A stretch of 64,000 bases of DNA from Sporosarcina ureae. Lineage in GTDB: Bacteria; Bacillota; Bacilli; Bacillales_A; Planococcaceae. Below are positions 1,972-50,320 of this stretch, one piece after another (within the stretch, counting starts at the first letter, position 1; each line of letters begins with the position of its first letter). The position numbers and the translations under genes are program-made. Location: the NCBI RefSeq assembly GCF_002109325.1, contig NZ_CP015348.1, positions 2,419,501 through 2,483,500 of the forward strand, read 5' to 3'. The notes below the pieces were generated by a model. That model did not search any database and was not told the origin of the DNA. It saw only the letters and a program-made list of their open reading frames with translations.

Positions 1972-2106
1972 TGCTCAATCGGAGGCTTTATCCGCCCTAT
2001 CACGGCCGCTAACCGCCCTATCAGAGCGGCCGAGCGCTCTATCAAGCCTGCTATTCGCTCTATCAGCCACGTCGACGGCTCATACAGCACGCGCAACCGC
2101 TCTTAG
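1972..2106. repeat. Array 1 of 21-bp degenerate repeats (7 units)
   Basis: Seven units begin at 1972, 1993, 2014, 2035, 2056, 2077 and 2098, exactly 21 bp apart. The conserved part is the first 8-9 bases (consensus CGCTCTATC, here with variants TGCTCAATC, CGCCCTATC and GGCTCATAC); the remaining 12 or so bases vary. The array lies between the terminator at 1884-1926 and the 3' end of pbpG. Related arrays are at 16061, 32664, 40281 and 50190. Because 21 is divisible by three, the array is open in a frame reading ALSxxxx heptads, but nothing indicates that it is translated. Confidence 0.85.
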
Positions 2107-2261
2107 CTCATCCCATCCTCACTATCACTTCACTCATCATCACTCAAAAAACGAAAACGGGAACAACTCCATTTTAGAATTTTCCTCTTCTCCAGAATGT
2201 TGTTCTCTCAACGAGCGATCCGTACATAACTTTTTCGGAACATCCTTATCCTTCACATAGA

Positions 2262-4193
2262 CTAATCGTTGTTTTGGACACTCATTGACTGCAATTCCGC
2301 CAGTTTCGATATCGACAATGACACCTTGCACGCCAGAAGGGGGAGGAATGGCTGTGGGGCTGTCCCTTCATGCGCGGCTTCCATGAAATCAATCCAGACT
2401 TTTTTGGAGACAGACTTATCTTCCAAGTCCTCGAGCTGTTTGCCGCGGTCGAAGCCTGTCCAGATGCCCGCTGTCAAGGTGGGAGAGAATCCAATTAAAT
2501 ACTGATCGGATATCGTTGTTCCCGACTTCGCTGCATAAGGTCGTGTTTGTTTCGGGCGCATCGACAATCCTGTAGAAGTTAAATAATCATTAAAGACGGG
2601 GTCGAACATACCTGTCATTAAATGCGTCAGCACAAACGTGTCTTGTTCCGACATCACTTGCTTCGGTTTTTTTGAAGAATGCTCATATACCAGTTTTCCG
2701 TTCGCATCCGTAATCGATAGAATCAATTGAGGTTCGACTTGTTTACCTTTTGACGCAATGCGATTATACGCTGTCGTCATCTCAAGCAATGTCACATCTG
2801 AAGTTCCGAGCGCGACCGCTGGGGATTCAGGAAACGCGACATCGACGCCAAGTCGCTGCGCCATTTTCGTATATGGCTTGTAACCGACCTGCTCAAGCGT
2901 TTTGACTGCATAAATATTATCCGATATCGCAATCGCCTGTGCTAATGAAATCGGCTTCGCCGCAAATTCTCCGTTAATATTGCTCGGCTCGTAGGTTGAA
3001 CGACCGTCGTCATACGTAAATAGCGTCTTTTCTGCTGTCATAAAGGTTAACGGATTCATCCCTTTTTCGAGCGCAGCCGCATAGAGAATCGGCTTCATCG
3101 CAGATCCCGGCTGACGTTTCGCTTGTGTCACACGGTTGAAGGAGCTATCACCAAAATCCACACCACCGATCATCGACGTGACGAATCCCGTGTCAGCAGC
3201 CATAGAAATGAATCCAACTTGCAGATCATTTGCAGGCATCGCTTGTTTAATGGCTTGTTCCGCTGCTTGCTGGTGCTGTTGATTCAACGTCGTTCGGATT
3301 TGCCAGCCACCTTCAGCAGGTACTCGCCCTTTAGACGCGAGGATGTCTTCCGCCTGTTGCCATGCAGCATCCAAAAAGTATGGAGCCACTTGTTTCATAT
3401 CTTTCCAACTCTCTGTCTTCAGCACGATTCTTTCTTCGACCGCGCGTTCCTTTTGCGCAGTTGAAATATAATCATATTCCTCCATTTGATCAAGTACGAG
3501 AAGTTGGCGGTTGCGAGAATTCTCTGGGTTATCTAAAGGTGAATAAACGGAAGGTCCTTTTGCGATGGCTGCAATCGTAGCGGCTTCTTCCAATGTCAGC
3601 TCTTTCGCGGCTTTGGAGAAATAAAATCGACTAGCCGCTTCCACGCCGTACATTCCATGCCCGAAGTAGACGGTATTTAAATAACCTTCCAAAATCGTAT
3701 CCTTGTCATAGAAAATTTCCAGTCGATAAGCAAACAGCGCTTCATGGATTTTCCGTGTCCAAGACTTTTCGTGCGTCAAATACAAATTCCGCGCATATTG
3801 CATGGTAATCGTACTCGCACCTTGTGCCTTACTCATTGTTTTGACGTCTTTCAGAACTGCACCAGCAAGTCGTTTATAATCGAATCCATTATGTGAATAA
3901 AATTTCTTGTCTTCCGTTGCTACAAAAGCTTCCGTAAGAAAAGGGGATATATCGGACAGCTTCATCCAATAACGTCGATGTTGTGAAAAATGATCCCCGA
4001 TCTGATGTCCACTATGATCGAGGAACAATGAAGCCTTTGGTACGCTCAGTGAAGGAGCACCAAGTACTTGAGCATATATTCGAAGGGCGATTAAGACAGT
4101 TACGATTGCAGCTATGGACGTGATCGACAGGGATAATGCAACCCTTTTCCACTTTCTGCGATTTGTTGATTTTATATAATCGGTACGTTTCAT
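2262..4193 (-). CDS. pbpG: Class A penicillin-binding protein (PbpG/PBP2d-like), frameshifted near C-terminus
   Basis: A bifunctional peptidoglycan synthase. It has an N-terminal cytoplasmic tail, one membrane segment near residues 18-42, a GT51 glycosyltransferase domain (EDKKFYSHNG near residue 93; QGASTITMQYARN near 124) and a transpeptidase domain. The transpeptidase shows the SAMK active serine, an SDN triad and a KSGTT box. The position next to ywhD matches B. subtilis pbpG. All catalytic motifs are intact. Near residue 617 the frame becomes implausible. Adding one base to the five-G run at 2339-2343 (plus strand) restores a family-like tail, GVQGVIVDIETGG..., which runs on to a TGA at 2140 and gives about 684 residues, close to the 691 of B. 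subtilis. The gene end is therefore probably 2140. This is either a homopolymer sequencing error or a real late frameshift. Confidence 0.9.
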   Translation of the reverse strand: MKRTDYIKSTNRRKWKRVALSLSITSIAAIVTVLIALRIYAQVLGAPSLSVPKASLFLDHSGHQIGDHFSQHRRYWMKLSDISPFLTEAFVATEDKKFYSHNGFDYKRLAGAVLKDVKTMSKAQGASTITMQYARNLYLTHEKSWTRKIHEALFAYRLEIFYDKDTILEGYLNTVYFGHGMYGVEAASRFYFSKAAKELTLEEAATIAAIAKGPSVYSPLDNPENSRNRQLLVLDQMEEYDYISTAQKERAVEERIVLKTESWKDMKQVAPYFLDAAWQQAEDILASKGRVPAEGGWQIRTTLNQQHQQAAEQAIKQAMPANDLQVGFISMAADTGFVTSMIGGVDFGDSSFNRVTQAKRQPGSAMKPILYAAALEKGMNPLTFMTAEKTLFTYDDGRSTYEPSNINGEFAAKPISLAQAIAISDNIYAVKTLEQVGYKPYTKMAQRLGVDVAFPESPAVALGTSDVTLLEMTTAYNRIASKGKQVEPQLILSITDANGKLVYEHSSKKPKQVMSEQDTFVLTHLMTGMFDPVFNDYLTSTGLSMRPKQTRPYAAKSGTTISDQYLIGFSPTLTAGIWTGFDRGKQLEDLEDKSVSKKVWIDFMEAAHEGTAPQPFLPLLACKVSLSISKLAELQSMSVQNND

Positions 4194-6650: not shown

Positions 6651-6664
6651 AAGTCATAATTACA

Positions 6665-6806
6665 TATCTTTCGAAAAGGTTCTCTAATTAACGAGATGAA
6701 AAGCGAAATCGGTTCAAATCCGATGCGGTCCCGCCACTGTACGTGCTATGCACAAGCCAGGTCACCTGCCTTTTTAAGAAAATGAAGTTCCGCAGCAACC
6801 TACGAG
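6665..6806 (+). promoter_or_regulatory. Cobalamin (B12) riboswitch aptamer
   Basis: The hallmarks of the adenosylcobalamin aptamer are present in order: a GGTTCAAATCCGATGCGG stretch, the near-invariant CCCGCCACTGT (about 6731-6741) and the B12-box-like AGCCAGGTCACCTGCC (about 6757-6772). A downstream expression platform follows, with ACCTA/TAGGT pairing and a terminator. It should lower transcription of the B12 import and salvage genes when adenosylcobalamin is plentiful. Exact edges are approximate. Confidence 0.92.
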
Positions 6807-15425: not shown

Positions 15426-16007
15426 ATGAAAATTTATACGAGAACGGGCGATAAGGGAACAACGGCTTTAATTGGAGGACGCGTAGCAAAAGACGACTTG
15501 CGCGTCGAAGCATACGGCACGATCGATGAACTGAATTCATTCGTCGGCAAGGCGATGACGGAACTCGACACAGAGAAATTCGCGGACATCCTAACTGACC
15601 TTGAAACTATCCAAAATGAATTATTCGACGGTGGCGGTGACTTGGCGAACGTCATGAAAGAACGCCACTACAAGCTCGACGAAGAGCCGATCACAGTTCT
15701 CGAGCAACGAATCGACAAGTTGATGGAAGAAGCACCTGAACTCGAACGCTTCATCCTACCTGGAGGATCACCAGCTGCTGCAACATTGCACATCGCGCGT
15801 ACCGTAACCCGCCGAGCAGAACGCGTGACGGTTACACTAATGAACGCAGCAGACGACGTTTCACCAGTCGTCGTGCGCTACTTAAACCGTCTTTCGGATT
15901 ACCTATTCGTAGCGGCACGCATTGTAAACGCACGTCTAGGAATTGCAGACAACGAATATGTCCGCAGTGCCAAAGTATTCCGCACAAGTGAGAAAAAAGA
16001 TAAGTAA
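15426..16007 (+). CDS. pduO: Cob(I)alamin adenosyltransferase, PduO type
   Basis: An ATP:corrinoid adenosyltransferase of the PduO/YvqK family, 193 residues, which attaches the 5'-deoxyadenosyl group to reduced corrinoid. Family motifs are present: KIYTRTGDKGTTALIGG at the N-terminus (ATP binding), AYGTIDELNSFVG, FILPGGSPAAATLHIARTVTRRAER and VRYLNRLSDYLFVAARIVN. It is the last gene of the cobalamin operon and ends at a strong terminator. Its product, adenosylcobalamin, is both the riboswitch ligand and the cofactor of IcmF, encoded about 10 kb downstream. Confidence 0.96.
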   Translation: MKIYTRTGDKGTTALIGGRVAKDDLRVEAYGTIDELNSFVGKAMTELDTEKFADILTDLETIQNELFDGGGDLANVMKERHYKLDEEPITVLEQRIDKLMEEAPELERFILPGGSPAAATLHIARTVTRRAERVTVTLMNAADDVSPVVVRYLNRLSDYLFVAARIVNARLGIADNEYVRSAKVFRTSEKKDK

Positions 16008-16020
16008 TTGCAGGGGAAAA

Positions 16021-16054
16021 GGGATGACAGGCTGAAGCTGTCATCCCTGTTTTT
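16021..16054 (+). terminator. Terminator of the cobalamin operon
   Basis: GGGATGACAG (16021-16030) pairs perfectly with CTGTCATCCC (16038-16047); a T run follows. Confidence 0.93.
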
Positions 16055-16060
16055 GTGTGT

Positions 16061-16328
16061 CGCTCTATTGAGTGGCGTGACCGCTCTATGCGGATGTTTG
16101 AGTGCTCTATCAGGCCGCGTGACCGCTCTATGCGGACATCTGAGTGCTCAATCTGGCCGCGTGACCGCTCTATGCGGATGTTTGAGTGCTCTATCAGGCC
16201 GCGTGACCGCTCTATGCGGACGTTCGAGTGCTCTATCAGGCCGCGTGACCGCTCTATGCGGACGTTTGAGTGCTCTATCGCGCCACATATCCGCTCTATG
16301 CAGACGTCCAAGCGCTCTATCAACTCCC
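16061..16328. repeat. Array 2 of 21-bp repeats (13 units, 42-bp higher-order period)
   Basis: Thirteen units begin every 21 bases from 16061 to 16313. Odd and even units differ systematically: one kind reads CGCTCTATGCGGA(C/T)GTTTGAG, the other TGCTCTATCAGGCCGCGTGAC. The array is thus also a 42-bp tandem repeat and is the most homogeneous of the five. It begins 7 bases after the T run of the operon terminator and ends five bases from the stop codon of the convergent alcohol dehydrogenase gene. Long frames on both strands are open through it because 21 is a multiple of three, with protein-level heptads such as ALSGRVT/ALCGRLS. They have no start signals or homology and are read as artefacts. 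Confidence 0.92.
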
Positions 16329-16332
16329 ACAA

Positions 16333-17532
16333 TCACACTCGAATCACATCATACAACTTCGCAAACTCTCTCATACTCAAAATCTTCGGCACGGGGTACA
16401 ACGGATTGGCTTCAGATGCCGCTCGTTCGACCATCAGCGGAATATCTTTCTTCACGATCCCTTCCACCTGCTCAGGGATCCCCATCAAACGGTTCAACAT
16501 GCGAATTTCCTCAATAAACTTCTCCGCCTTCATTCGTTTCGTATCCGAACGACTCGTAATTCCAATTAAATCAGCCAACTCTGAGAGGGGCTCATAGACA
16601 GTTTTTCCATAATACTCGAGCACGTGTGGCAAGATAATTGCATTCGCTAATCCATGCGGTATATTATAAAATCCGCCGAGTGTATGTGCAATTGCATGCA
16701 CATTGCCTACGTACGCCCGTGTGAATGCCTTTCCAGCCAAATAAGAAGCCCACTGCATATTTGTTCGTGCAGTTAGATTTTCACCATTACGATACGCTTC
16801 ATATAAATTTGCAAACACCAACTGCACCACTTCGCGACTATCTTTCCATGTTTCCTTCGTATTACTGTTACCAATATACGCCTCAACTGCATGTGTCAAC
16901 GCATCAATACCGGTGGCAGCGGTAATCGAAGGTGGCAACTTGATGGTAAGTAGGGGGTCGAGCACTGCGTAATGTGGAATCAATGAAGTATCGCTGATCG
17001 CATACTTCTCATGCGTCCTGCTATTTGTCACCACCGCGGCCAATGTTGCTTCGCTTCCAGTACCTGCAGTTGTCGGTACCGTAAACAACGTCGGAATTCG
17101 CTTGCGCACATGGAATAAACCCTTCAGTTCGGGAATATGTTTATTGGGTCTGGCAATGCGTGCACCGACCGCTTTCGCGCAATCAATTGGTGACCCGCCA
17201 CCAAACGCAATCAACGCCTCGCATTCGTTCGCTAGATACAACCCACGCGCTTCCTCAATATTATCAATTGTCGGGTTCGCAACCGTCTTGTCATAGACTA
17301 AGTACTTGATGCCGAGTGAATCAAGCCCAACGAGCATGACATCTAGTAAACCAAGTTTCGCAATATCACGGTCTGTAATAATCAGCACGCTACCAATTCC
17401 GAGACTCTTCACCTTACCGGCAAGCCCCTCCAGGCTCCCAGGACCAATGAGTAGCTCAGGTTCACGCCATGGCAATAAGTACATACCCGCCTTGAGCCCG
17501 TTTTGAAATAAACGTGCGTATAATCGATACAT
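16333..17532 (-). CDS. Iron-containing alcohol dehydrogenase
   Basis: A group III (iron-activated) NAD(P)-dependent alcohol dehydrogenase of about 399 residues. It has an N-terminal Rossmann-like domain with GGGSPIDCAKAVG, then the metal-site region: TVPTTAGTGSEAT, the Asp/His pair in GIDALTHAVEAY and the two His of HAIAHTLGGFYNIPHG. Substrate is not predictable; butanol- or lactaldehyde-type enzymes are similar. I place the start at ATG 17532, 8 bases after GGAGAGGGG, not at the in-frame codon 33 bases upstream. A perfect cre box lies 36 bases before the start, so repression by CcpA is likely. It is convergent with the cobalamin operon. Confidence 0.9.
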   Translation of the reverse strand: MYRLYARLFQNGLKAGMYLLPWREPELLIGPGSLEGLAGKVKSLGIGSVLIITDRDIAKLGLLDVMLVGLDSLGIKYLVYDKTVANPTIDNIEEARGLYLANECEALIAFGGGSPIDCAKAVGARIARPNKHIPELKGLFHVRKRIPTLFTVPTTAGTGSEATLAAVVTNSRTHEKYAISDTSLIPHYAVLDPLLTIKLPPSITAATGIDALTHAVEAYIGNSNTKETWKDSREVVQLVFANLYEAYRNGENLTARTNMQWASYLAGKAFTRAYVGNVHAIAHTLGGFYNIPHGLANAIILPHVLEYYGKTVYEPLSELADLIGITSRSDTKRMKAEKFIEEIRMLNRLMGIPEQVEGIVKKDIPLMVERAASEANPLYPVPKILSMREFAKLYDVIRV

Positions 17533-17567
17533 AACCAAAACCCCTCTCCAATGCGCACAGCACATTA

Positions 17568-32483: not shown

Positions 32484-32652
32484 GATCCAGTTGGGGGACG
32501 CTTTTCCCAAGGGATCGCGGTGAGCCAACCAGTTCGCTAGTGCAAACGTGTGCTCCTAACGCTTCGCTTTTACTCGCAGCAGCCGTCCTTCGCTACGGCT
32601 CTCGCTCTCTTTTGGTTGTCACACTTGATCGAGCTGAACCATCACGAGTCAC
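32484..32652. repeat. Type B intergenic element, rearranged copy
   Basis: It contains the type B blocks GATCCAGTTGGGGGACGC, CGGTGAGCCAACCAG, then the reverse-oriented GTGCTCCTAACGCTTCGCTT and AGCCGTCCTTCGCTACGGCT, then TTTTGGTTGTCACA and GATCGAGCTGAACCATC. Compared with 29115-29309 the middle part is inverted. Non-coding; it leads into a 21-bp array. Confidence 0.75.
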
Positions 32653-32663
32653 CGTCAGCTATC

Positions 32664-32796
32664 CGCTCATAGAATCCGTTTAAGCGCTCATAGAACGCAT
32701 TTTTCGCTCTATAGCACGCGCTATCCGCTCTATCAGACGCCACGAGTGCTCATGGATTCATCTAAGTGATCATAGAACCTTGATAACCGCTCATAG
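32664..32796. repeat. Array 3 of 21-bp repeats (7 units)
   Basis: Units begin at 32664, 32685, 32705, 32726, 32747, 32767 and 32788 (spacing 21, with 20 twice). The octamer is CGCTCATA or CGCTCTAT, with two degenerate copies (TGCTCATG, TGATCATA). The array sits between a type B element and a fragment of the AT-rich linker (32815-32910), downstream of pyrG and convergent ywjG. Confidence 0.85.
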
Positions 32797-32919
32797 CCTC
32801 GAAAGTTTAACACCTTGCCAGCTACTATACGTCTACTCACTCAGATTTTGCACTACAATCTTAACTTCAATGCACAACAAAAAGTATGATCCACTCACCT
32901 TGCAAACCCTTACCCCATA

Positions 32920-38317: not shown

Positions 38318-39598
38318 ATGACGATGATTACGCTTGCGGACCTCGAGAATATGACGCTCAAAGAGCTTTACTCTCTAGCTAAGCAATTTAAAATTACTAA
38401 CTATAGCAAACTGACAAAGAAAGAATTAATTTTTGCTATTTTGAAATCACGCGCCGAACAAGAAGGCTTCTTTTTCATGGAAGGCGTTCTCGAAATTATA
38501 CAATCTGAAGGATATGGCTTCTTACGTCCTATCAATTACTCATCCAGTTCAGAAGATATTTACATTTCTGCATCCCAAATCCGTCGCTTTGATCTACGTA
38601 ACGGAGACAAGGTAACAGGTAAAGTTCGTCCACCAAAGGAAAATGAACGCTTCTATGGATTATTGCAAGTCGAAGCAGTCAATGGACAAAATCCGGAAGT
38701 CGCACGCGAACGTGTTCATTTCCCGGCATTGACACCTTTATATCCTGATCGTCAAATTAAATTAGAAACATCGAGAAATAACGTGTCTACACGCATCATG
38801 GATCTCGTCTCGCCTGTTGGATTTGGTCAACGTGGATTAATCGTCGCTCCTCCTAAAGCGGGAAAAACGACGTTGTTAAAAGAAATTGCTAACTCCATCA
38901 CTACAAACCATCCTGAAGCTGAACTAATCGTTCTATTGATCGACGAACGTCCAGAAGAAGTAACGGATATCGAACGTTCTGTTAAAGCAGATGTTGTCAG
39001 TTCGACATTTGATGAAGTACCACAAAACCATGTGAAAGTAGCGGAACTAGTACTCGAACGCGCAATGCGTCTAGTAGAAAGTAAACGCGACGTCATCATC
39101 TTGATGGACTCCATCACACGACTAGCACGTGCATTCAACCTAGTGATTCCACCAAGCGGACGCACATTATCCGGAGGAATCGACCCAGCAGCTTTCCACC
39201 GACCAAAAAGATTCTTCGGTGCAGCACGTAACATAGAAGAAGGCGGAAGCCTAACAATCCTTGCCACAGCTCTAATCGAAACCGGCTCACGCATGGACGA
39301 AGTCATCTACGAAGAATTCAAAGGAACCGGCAACATGGAACTGCACCTAGACCGCAACCTAGCCGAACGCAGAATCTTCCCAGCACTCGACATCCGTCGC
39401 TCCGGCACACGAAAAGAAGAACTGCTCATCCCTAAAGAAAACCTAGAAAAACTGTGGGCTATCAGAAAAACCTTCTCAGACTCCCACGACTTCACCGAAC
39501 GCTTCATGAAAAAACTAAGCCAATCCGATAACAACGAAGAATTCTTCGACAAGCTAAACGAAGAAATGAAGGCGAAAAAAGGTAAGGGCCTTATCTGA
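38318..39598 (+). CDS. rho: Transcription termination factor Rho
   Basis: A hexameric RNA-dependent ATPase/helicase that ends transcription, 426 residues. It has an N-terminal helix bundle ([21 protein letters not shown]), a cold-shock-like RNA-binding domain ([33 protein letters not shown]), Walker A PPKAGKTT near residue 180, the [15 protein letters not shown]-loop region, Walker [15 protein letters not shown] and the secondary RNA site [10 protein letters not shown]. The start at ATG 38318 has only a weak Shine-Dalgarno (GTGGTG). From about 39100 on, codons become C-rich at the third position, toward the repeat that follows the gene. Confidence 0.98.
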
Positions 39599-39837: not shown

Positions 39838-39986
39838 AATCAAGTACAGTTTTTCTGTACACCGCATATACGACTGACAAACACGGGTCGTGTACGGCAT
39901 CGATCGTTTTATAGGCAAATGGCCAATAAAACATCCAGAATTTCACACTCTGTTCCAGATGGTTCAGGGCGAAAGGAGAGATATCG

Positions 39987-40280: not shown

Positions 40281-40421
40281 TGCTCATAGAAGTCGCCCGA
40301 GTGCTCTATCGCTGGCGTCAACCGCTCATAGAATGAGGTTGATCGCTCTATCTGTGCCCGTTTACGCTCATATCAGTGGTATAACCGCTCTATCGGGCCC
40401 ACAACCGCTCATAGGATTAAC
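40281..40421. repeat. Array 4 of 21-bp repeats (7 units)
   Basis: Units begin at 40281, 40302, 40323, 40344, 40365, 40386 and 40406 (21 each, the last 20). Octamers alternate between the ATA kind (CGCTCATA) and the TAT kind (CGCTCTAT), again hinting at a 42-bp order as in array 2. It fills the space between the rpmE terminator and tdk. Confidence 0.88.
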
Positions 40422-40471
40422 ACACAACGCACAAACCACATACATAGCACGACATCGAAAGGAGATTGACC

Positions 40472-47245: not shown

Positions 47246-47573
47246 AGTGGGGCGATCATTGGCCCCACTTCGGCGGTGGTGGATGGCTTCCGCAATGAGC
47301 CAGACAGGAAGTACGCCTGGCTGTCTCATTACTACGCCTACCACTGGCAGCCGCCTTCGTTAGATAGGGTGTGAGGCAGTTCAGATTCTTCTTTTGCAAG
47401 GATAGGAACTAGTACTACCCAGTCACTGATTTTATCTACTATAAACCACAACCTGACTTGGTAAGCACTTAGTAGCGCAGGCACAACTGCGGGGTAGGCC
47501 GTGGCCATGAGACAGCTAGCAGCCCCACCGCTAGTTGGCTCATGGCTGGAGGCAATCCCCCACGTGCCTGCGC
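47246..47573. repeat. Intergenic element with large nested inverted repeats
   Basis: Two structured blocks flank about 120 AT-rich bases. Block 1 has AGTGGGGC/GCCCCACT (47246-47253, 47262-47269) and a long imperfect stem AATGAGCCAGACAGG / CCTGGCTGTCTCATT. Block 2 is nested: outer GCGCAGGCAC (47475-47484) / GTGCCTGCGC (47564-47573), inner GCCATGAG (47504-47511) / CTCATGGC (47539-47546) extended to CTAGC/GCTAG. No credible gene is present. It differs from the type A and B families. It may be a mobile or RNA-coding element. Confidence 0.65.
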
Positions 47574-47818
47574 GAGTCCAAAGCATGACCCTCACTACTT
47601 TCCATGAACAAGCCAATATCGAGCAACGACCCTAACCCACAAAAACACCGCTAAAAAGACGTACGATACATTAACTTTATTCATATAACATTCGTCTTTA
47701 TGACAAAACTTCAACGTTTCAAAATGAAAAATTCATAAAAAGTACAGTAAAACCGATGATTTTTTTATCGAACAATGATAGAATAAGCGATAAGTAAAAA
47801 TAGAAATGAGGGTGCGCA

Positions 47819-50167: not shown

Positions 50168-50189
50168 AGTGTGGTGTTCTAGAGTGTAT

Positions 50190-50320
50190 GAGCGGATAAA
50201 GGGGAGAATAGAGCGGATAAAAGTCATGATAGAGCATTCAGGGTTCTCCATAGAGCGGATCACGTGCCATATAGAGCGTTCAACGGTCGTGATAGAGCGC
50301 TAAATCGCATACATTGAGCA
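50190..50320. repeat. Array 5 of 21-bp repeats (7 units, opposite orientation)
   Basis: The reverse complement of the octamer, ATAGAGCG, recurs with GAGCG at 50190, 50211, 50232, 50253, 50274, 50295 and 50316, all exactly 21 apart (50232 and 50316 read GAGCA). This is the only array in the window oriented on the minus strand. It fills the gap between the glyA terminator and the upp promoter. Confidence 0.9.

Follow-up and report, generated by a model that had tools for sequence, protein, structure and literature searches.

Are the short direct repeats that recur between the genes of Sporosarcina ureae sites for a protein, or copies of an element that intergenic DNA merely tolerates? For the interspersed intergenic repeats of bacteria, constraints that separate function from junk are rare, and it has long been asked if such repeats serve as architectural sites for proteins. 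In the 64,000-nucleotide stretch of chromosome analysed here (the window), an earlier note had described five intergenic arrays of an octamer recurring every 21 bp, a spacing of two helical turns. Because phase, unit number, strand polarity and site retention can each be measured in these arrays, the architectural question is directly testable by a pull-down with one defined DNA of 147 bp.

Five arrays in the window and at least 67 in the genome

All five arrays are present where they had been placed, with small corrections at their edges, and the three steps of 20 bp reported among them are right. Array 1 (1972-2118, plus strand) consists of seven 21-bp units with octamers starting between 1972 and 2098, and occupies the convergent gap between a YwhD-family gene (1146-1664, plus) and a penicillin-binding-protein gene (2262-4193, minus); a collinear seven-unit ortholog occurs in a Sporosarcina ureae MAG (L036). 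Array 2 (16061-16333, plus strand; octamer starts 16061-16313) has 13 units in a form expanded by a 42-bp dimer, and lies between genes for cobalamin adenosyltransferase (15426-16007, plus) and an Fe-alcohol dehydrogenase (16333-17565, minus). A terminator-like hairpin of the intrinsic type (16020-16048, plus strand), with 11 pairs and a T tail, ends 12 bp before this array; the hairpin scan is not significant alone, since it found one hairpin where shuffles gave 0.9. Array 3 (32664-32808, plus strand) has seven units, with octamers starting between 32664 and 32788 at steps of 21, 20, 21, 21, 20 and 21 bp. Close copies of it lie at 751.9, 863.8, 2828.7 (three in tandem) and 2859.9 kb, and array 3 is a copy dispersed recently. 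Directly upstream is a separate dispersed repeat (32494-32653), with matches in two other genomes (G228 and G229).

Array 4 (40281-40426, plus strand; seven units, octamer starts 40281-40406, one 20-bp step) separates rpmE, which has an L31 leader at 39948, from a thymidine kinase gene. Array 5 (50174-50320) also has seven units and is flanked by glyA, which encodes SHMT, and upp, which encodes UPRTase; its CGCTC is on the minus strand, a detail absent from the earlier note, with octamer starts running from 50320 down to 50194. The window arrays are flanked by ten genes that are either housekeeping or unrelated, and so do not have the look of a regulon. In an Rfam search of the window only a cobalamin riboswitch (6660-6787) and the L31 ribosomal-protein leader (39948-39978) matched above the gathering score, and the arrays matched no family. 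Neither did a dispersed repeat of about 387 bp (47246-47632), which has dozens of partial or full matches in the nearest relative, G231, and many copies in other Sporosarcina.

Five arrays in 64 kb had been taken as a sign of a genome-wide system, and the arrays are indeed not confined to the window. Pattern matching followed by reading stretch by stretch gave at least 67 arrays at 49 loci in the genome, and arrays occur in other genera; BLAST matches at 2.359 and 2.768 Mb are probably further arrays outside the 67. Paired octamers matched 218 times genome-wide (166 + 52), against 0 + 1 for the pattern read backwards as a control. The predicted concentration of spacing also held: within the 67 arrays the motif advances by 21 bp in 457 steps, by 20 bp in 31 and by 22 bp in four, and when 12-38 bp was allowed, nearly all triplets still kept to 20-22 bp. 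Freeing the spacing in this way added few matches across the family, and in the host the rise was from 101 + 25 to 103 + 25; the search itself therefore did not dictate the 20-22 bp spacing.

A near-fixed length, missed earlier, is the second regularity. Exactly seven units are found in 57 of the 67 arrays, and in 29 of 37 once near-copies are removed. The others have eight units (three arrays, in two of which the counting rule over-extended, as judged by eye), 13 (two arrays), or 9, 11, 21, 23 and 46, and most of these look expanded. The 9-, 11-, 13-, 21- and 23-unit arrays are all odd in number, and in several of them two units alternate as a 42-bp repeat, which is consistent with growth from seven by 42-bp steps. 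Whole arrays have also been duplicated in tandem (L060, L061, L065, L067, L167 and L171). The repeats had been called too divergent for slippage, which does not apply to the 42-bp dimer expansions, the array at 16061 included, as these are clearly duplications; simple slippage nevertheless leaves the fixed seven and the conservation of the octamer unexplained.

Anatomy of the unit and its conservation

Aligning 224 units from 40 diverged arrays defines the octamer as YGCTC-WWW, with A at position 3 in 12% of units. It is preceded by YRW at unit positions 18-20 and mostly by S at 21, while positions 10-17 carry little information. The end units differ, unit 1 tending to YGCTCAWWG and unit 7 to CGCTCATAG. 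If all seven-unit arrays descended from one element, units at the same position should be alike; among 25 diverged arrays the central units 3-5 are about as similar at the same position (0.34-0.35) as at different positions (0.33-0.34), so that only the end units are alike by position. The box recurs at an integral number of helical turns, as in a phased protein-binding array that works like an iteron array. A peptide-coding repeat was rejected, since the 20-bp and 22-bp steps break frame.

Several sites are retained among relatives. The gap of array 2 is occupied in eight congeners by arrays of 7-22 units whose spacers differ, some of them with CGCTCAAT in place of CGCTCTAT; the sequence retrieved from G181, G182 and G212 showed none. 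The gap of array 4 contains an array in the same orientation in 10 of 10 relatives compared (6-26 units), and that of array 5 in 10 of 10, inverted in one (G193); spacers and unit numbers vary between relatives at both sites. No array was found in the gap of array 3 in nine relatives. Between the host (G000) and G231, a comparison that rests on three arrays, octamers differ at 5 of 168 positions and spacers at 32 of 272 (p=0.001), so that change in the octamer is about four times lower than in the spacer.

Phasing, the conservation of octamer over spacer and retention at orthologous sites fit phased protein sites, and the anatomy and constraints together favour a DNA-level, phased and putatively protein-bound array. 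We put the chance at about even that the arrays are polar clusters of DNA boxes to which a putative sequence-specific protein binds cooperatively, and that they act as local landmarks or boundaries of the chromosome. The box would be about 12 bp long, YRW-S-YGCTC-WWW, made up of unit positions 18-21 followed by 1-8. With boxes every two helical turns, the putative bound subunits would be aligned on one face of the helix, and A/T-rich patches once per turn (TA steps at 6-8 and 18-19) may ease bending or wrapping of the array of about 147 bp.

The same patches could act alone. Gyrase or an HU-like nucleoid protein might be drawn to the neighbourhood of gene ends by A/T and G/C patches that keep in phase along about 147 bp, much as proposed for REP/BIME elements, with no dedicated sequence-specific protein. 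Among the harmonics listed for W, WW and TA, that at 10.5 bp is the largest; W fills on average 2.29 of the three positions 18-20, compared with 1.38 in shuffled spacers. This periodicity, the array length and the location between transcription units all agree with general bending or topology sites. The CGCTC core, however, is far more conserved than bendability requires and is common to two orders, and the unit number ranges from 4 to 46, so we consider such sites quite unlikely as the explanation.

Position between transcription units and replication polarity

The claim that all arrays lie just past gene ends or terminators stands only roughly. With gaps classed by a home-made gene finder, 44 loci divide into 20 convergent, 23 codirectional and one divergent, compared with 14 codirectional, three convergent and three divergent among window gaps of at least 150 bp; a T5 run at most 90 bp upstream or an A5 run at most 90 bp downstream accompanies 50 of the 67 arrays. 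In codirectional gaps the array has the orientation of the genes in 15 cases and the opposite one in eight, and this freedom to run either way points to DNA rather than RNA. Folding points the same way, with mean z of -0.49 and -0.59 on the two strands of 38 arrays and hence no signal of structure. An RNA element was therefore rejected.

With dnaA at 1.924 Mb taken as the origin and the terminus assumed to be the opposite point, 37 of 49 loci have arrays that run in the direction of the fork (p=0.0005); by gap type, this holds for 18 of 20 in convergent and 14 of 23 in codirectional gaps. Lying between transcription units and mostly aligned with the fork, the arrays would probably serve as local chromosome landmarks or boundaries, as a barrier or anchor at the meeting points of transcription units, which are often convergent.

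The composition around the arrays invites a different account. GC skew is +0.37 just upstream, about zero in the middle units and -0.33 just downstream, a fall within about 100 bp; the pattern is identical on both strands and thus independent of array polarity. Bidirectional termination or recombination zones could produce such a flip, G/T-rich before and A/C-rich after in both reading directions. In the termination version, C-rich, G-poor RNA would load Rho on read-through from either side, and a Rho gene is present (window 38318-39598); in the recombination version, cytosine would be deaminated on 3' single strands at recurrent breaks. It speaks for these zones that the flip accompanies either array orientation in codirectional gaps and is absent from 32 array-free codirectional gaps. 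Array-free convergent controls, of which there are only three, flip similarly, however, and neither version accounts for the octamer, the two-turn phasing or the fork polarity. We therefore regard this account as improbable. The skew flip is not a consequence of a protein bound to phased boxes either.

Counted in favour of the protein-bound boxes are the spacing, the fixed seven, the octamer constraint, site retention, the 10.5-bp harmonic, fork polarity and the lack of an RNA signal. Counted against them are a unit number that is not universal across genera and relatives, copies that have also spread by dispersal (array 3), and congeners in which the pattern finds no arrays.

Distribution and comparison with known repeats

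Of 261 genomes in the host family, 62, from 11 of 19 genera, have the CGCTC-WWW core spaced at 19-22 bp. Outside it, a class-wide sample gave one strong genome (G613, 33 matches) and three others with one or two matches. Of 120 genomes in the order to which G613 belongs, 13 match, and the arrays listed are mostly spaced at 19-21 bp. Arrays sampled in other genera mostly have about 4-9 units, with narrow ranges in some genomes, and those of close relatives reach about 37. Many congeners have no arrays visible to the search pattern, which makes the system dispensable; G193-G198 and G228-G230, for example, are rich in arrays, and G199-G203 are free of them. The reversed control was strongly positive in some genomes because they have a different core, GCGAG-WWW at 21 bp. 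Such arrays (GCGAGTAT where listed) occur as L118 and L119 (G033 and G034) and in G057, G144, G234 and G244, mostly at exactly 21 bp. The three-unit pattern also matched in Gordonia, Methylococcaceae and Sporolactobacillus, where the units, judged by eye, seem to belong to local repeats of another kind; the match in Oceanobacillus is a local array of 26 units.

Could the arrays be selfish or neutral satellites, a seven-unit element copied about and homogenised by unequal exchange, without host function and in gaps that merely tolerate insertion? The dispersed near-copies of array 3, the whole-array tandem duplications, the 42-bp expansions (9, 11, 13, 21, 23 and 46 units), the patchy distribution and the avoidance of divergent gaps are all as this predicts. 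Yet spacers diverge about four times as much as octamers, the same gaps are kept across the genus while spacers are replaced, the 19-22 bp spacing is held across two orders, and arrays in convergent gaps follow the fork 18:2. Satellites without function thus seem to us unlikely. The distribution and constraints suggest instead a chromosome-wide set of protein-binding sites, previously undescribed. That they form a chromosome-organising system throughout the Bacillales is a wider and more tentative proposal, possible at well under even chances: about 50 polar nucleoprotein complexes of defined size would assemble on seven boxes in about 147 bp of phased, bendable DNA, between transcription units and in line with the fork, with box and unit number co-evolving with a lineage-specific protein.

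Among known repeats, the REP/BIME elements of enterobacteria are interspersed and extragenic, lie at 3' ends and in convergent gaps, and are proposed sites for gyrase or nucleoid-associated proteins. The arrays resemble them in being extragenic, near gene 3' ends and rare in divergent gaps (the 20, 23 and one given above), but REPs are folding palindromes, whereas the arrays are non-palindromic direct repeats in two-turn phase with no folding signal; a REP-type palindromic, foldable unit is excluded by the z values of the 38 arrays. The STAR elements of Staphylococcus aureus, which belongs to a related lineage, are likewise short direct repeats clustered between genes and with no settled function, but their motif is different. 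Plasmid iterons and ParR-type centromere arrays are direct repeats of 20-22 bp, bound cooperatively by a dedicated protein, at one locus per replicon adjoining its own rep or par gene. They share the spacing of about two turns, but here there are about 50 chromosomal loci, those of the window beside unrelated housekeeping genes. Chi of Bacillus subtilis is AGCGG, the complement of which, CCGCT, lies inside many units. AGCGG is mostly leading-sense outside the arrays (297:194) and mostly lagging-sense inside them (203:40), and Chi was rejected for this opposite orientation, with the reservation that Chi of B. subtilis may not be that of Sporosarcina. CRISPR arrays have conserved repeats of about 25-40 bp and unique spacers of similar length; a 21-bp unit in which a box of 8 bp is conserved, the duplication of spacers inside arrays and the number of 49 loci do not agree with this.

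REP superfamilies are treated in PMC3733652. The TAACTGA heptamer repeats of marine Beggiatoaceae occur as 2-6 direct copies per set, for the most part immediately before a start codon and in forward orientation to the gene that follows, with a proposed effect on translation (PMC4679880). They too are short direct repeats in many intergenic sets, with a patchy distribution and a binder that is not known (PMC4679880), but the Sporosarcina arrays lie between transcription units, either way to the genes, with repeats two turns apart. A regulatory repeat of the TAACTGA type was rejected because arrays in codirectional gaps take either orientation and because 20 of 44 loci are in convergent gaps, which lack a downstream start codon. 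Searches of open-licence papers with octamer strings or keywords gave no description or direct precedent of the arrays, and on that literature they are a new family within a known kind, the interspersed intergenic repeats.

Two observations concern the edges of arrays elsewhere. In genus g12 (L093 and L115) short inverted arms, e.g. TGAGACA...TGTCTCA, flank some arrays. In G613, four arrays (L148, L149, L151 and L152) have a common leader, approximately TTTACGGTACGTG...TTACACGTT, with an inverted ACGTGT/ACACGT just before the first box.
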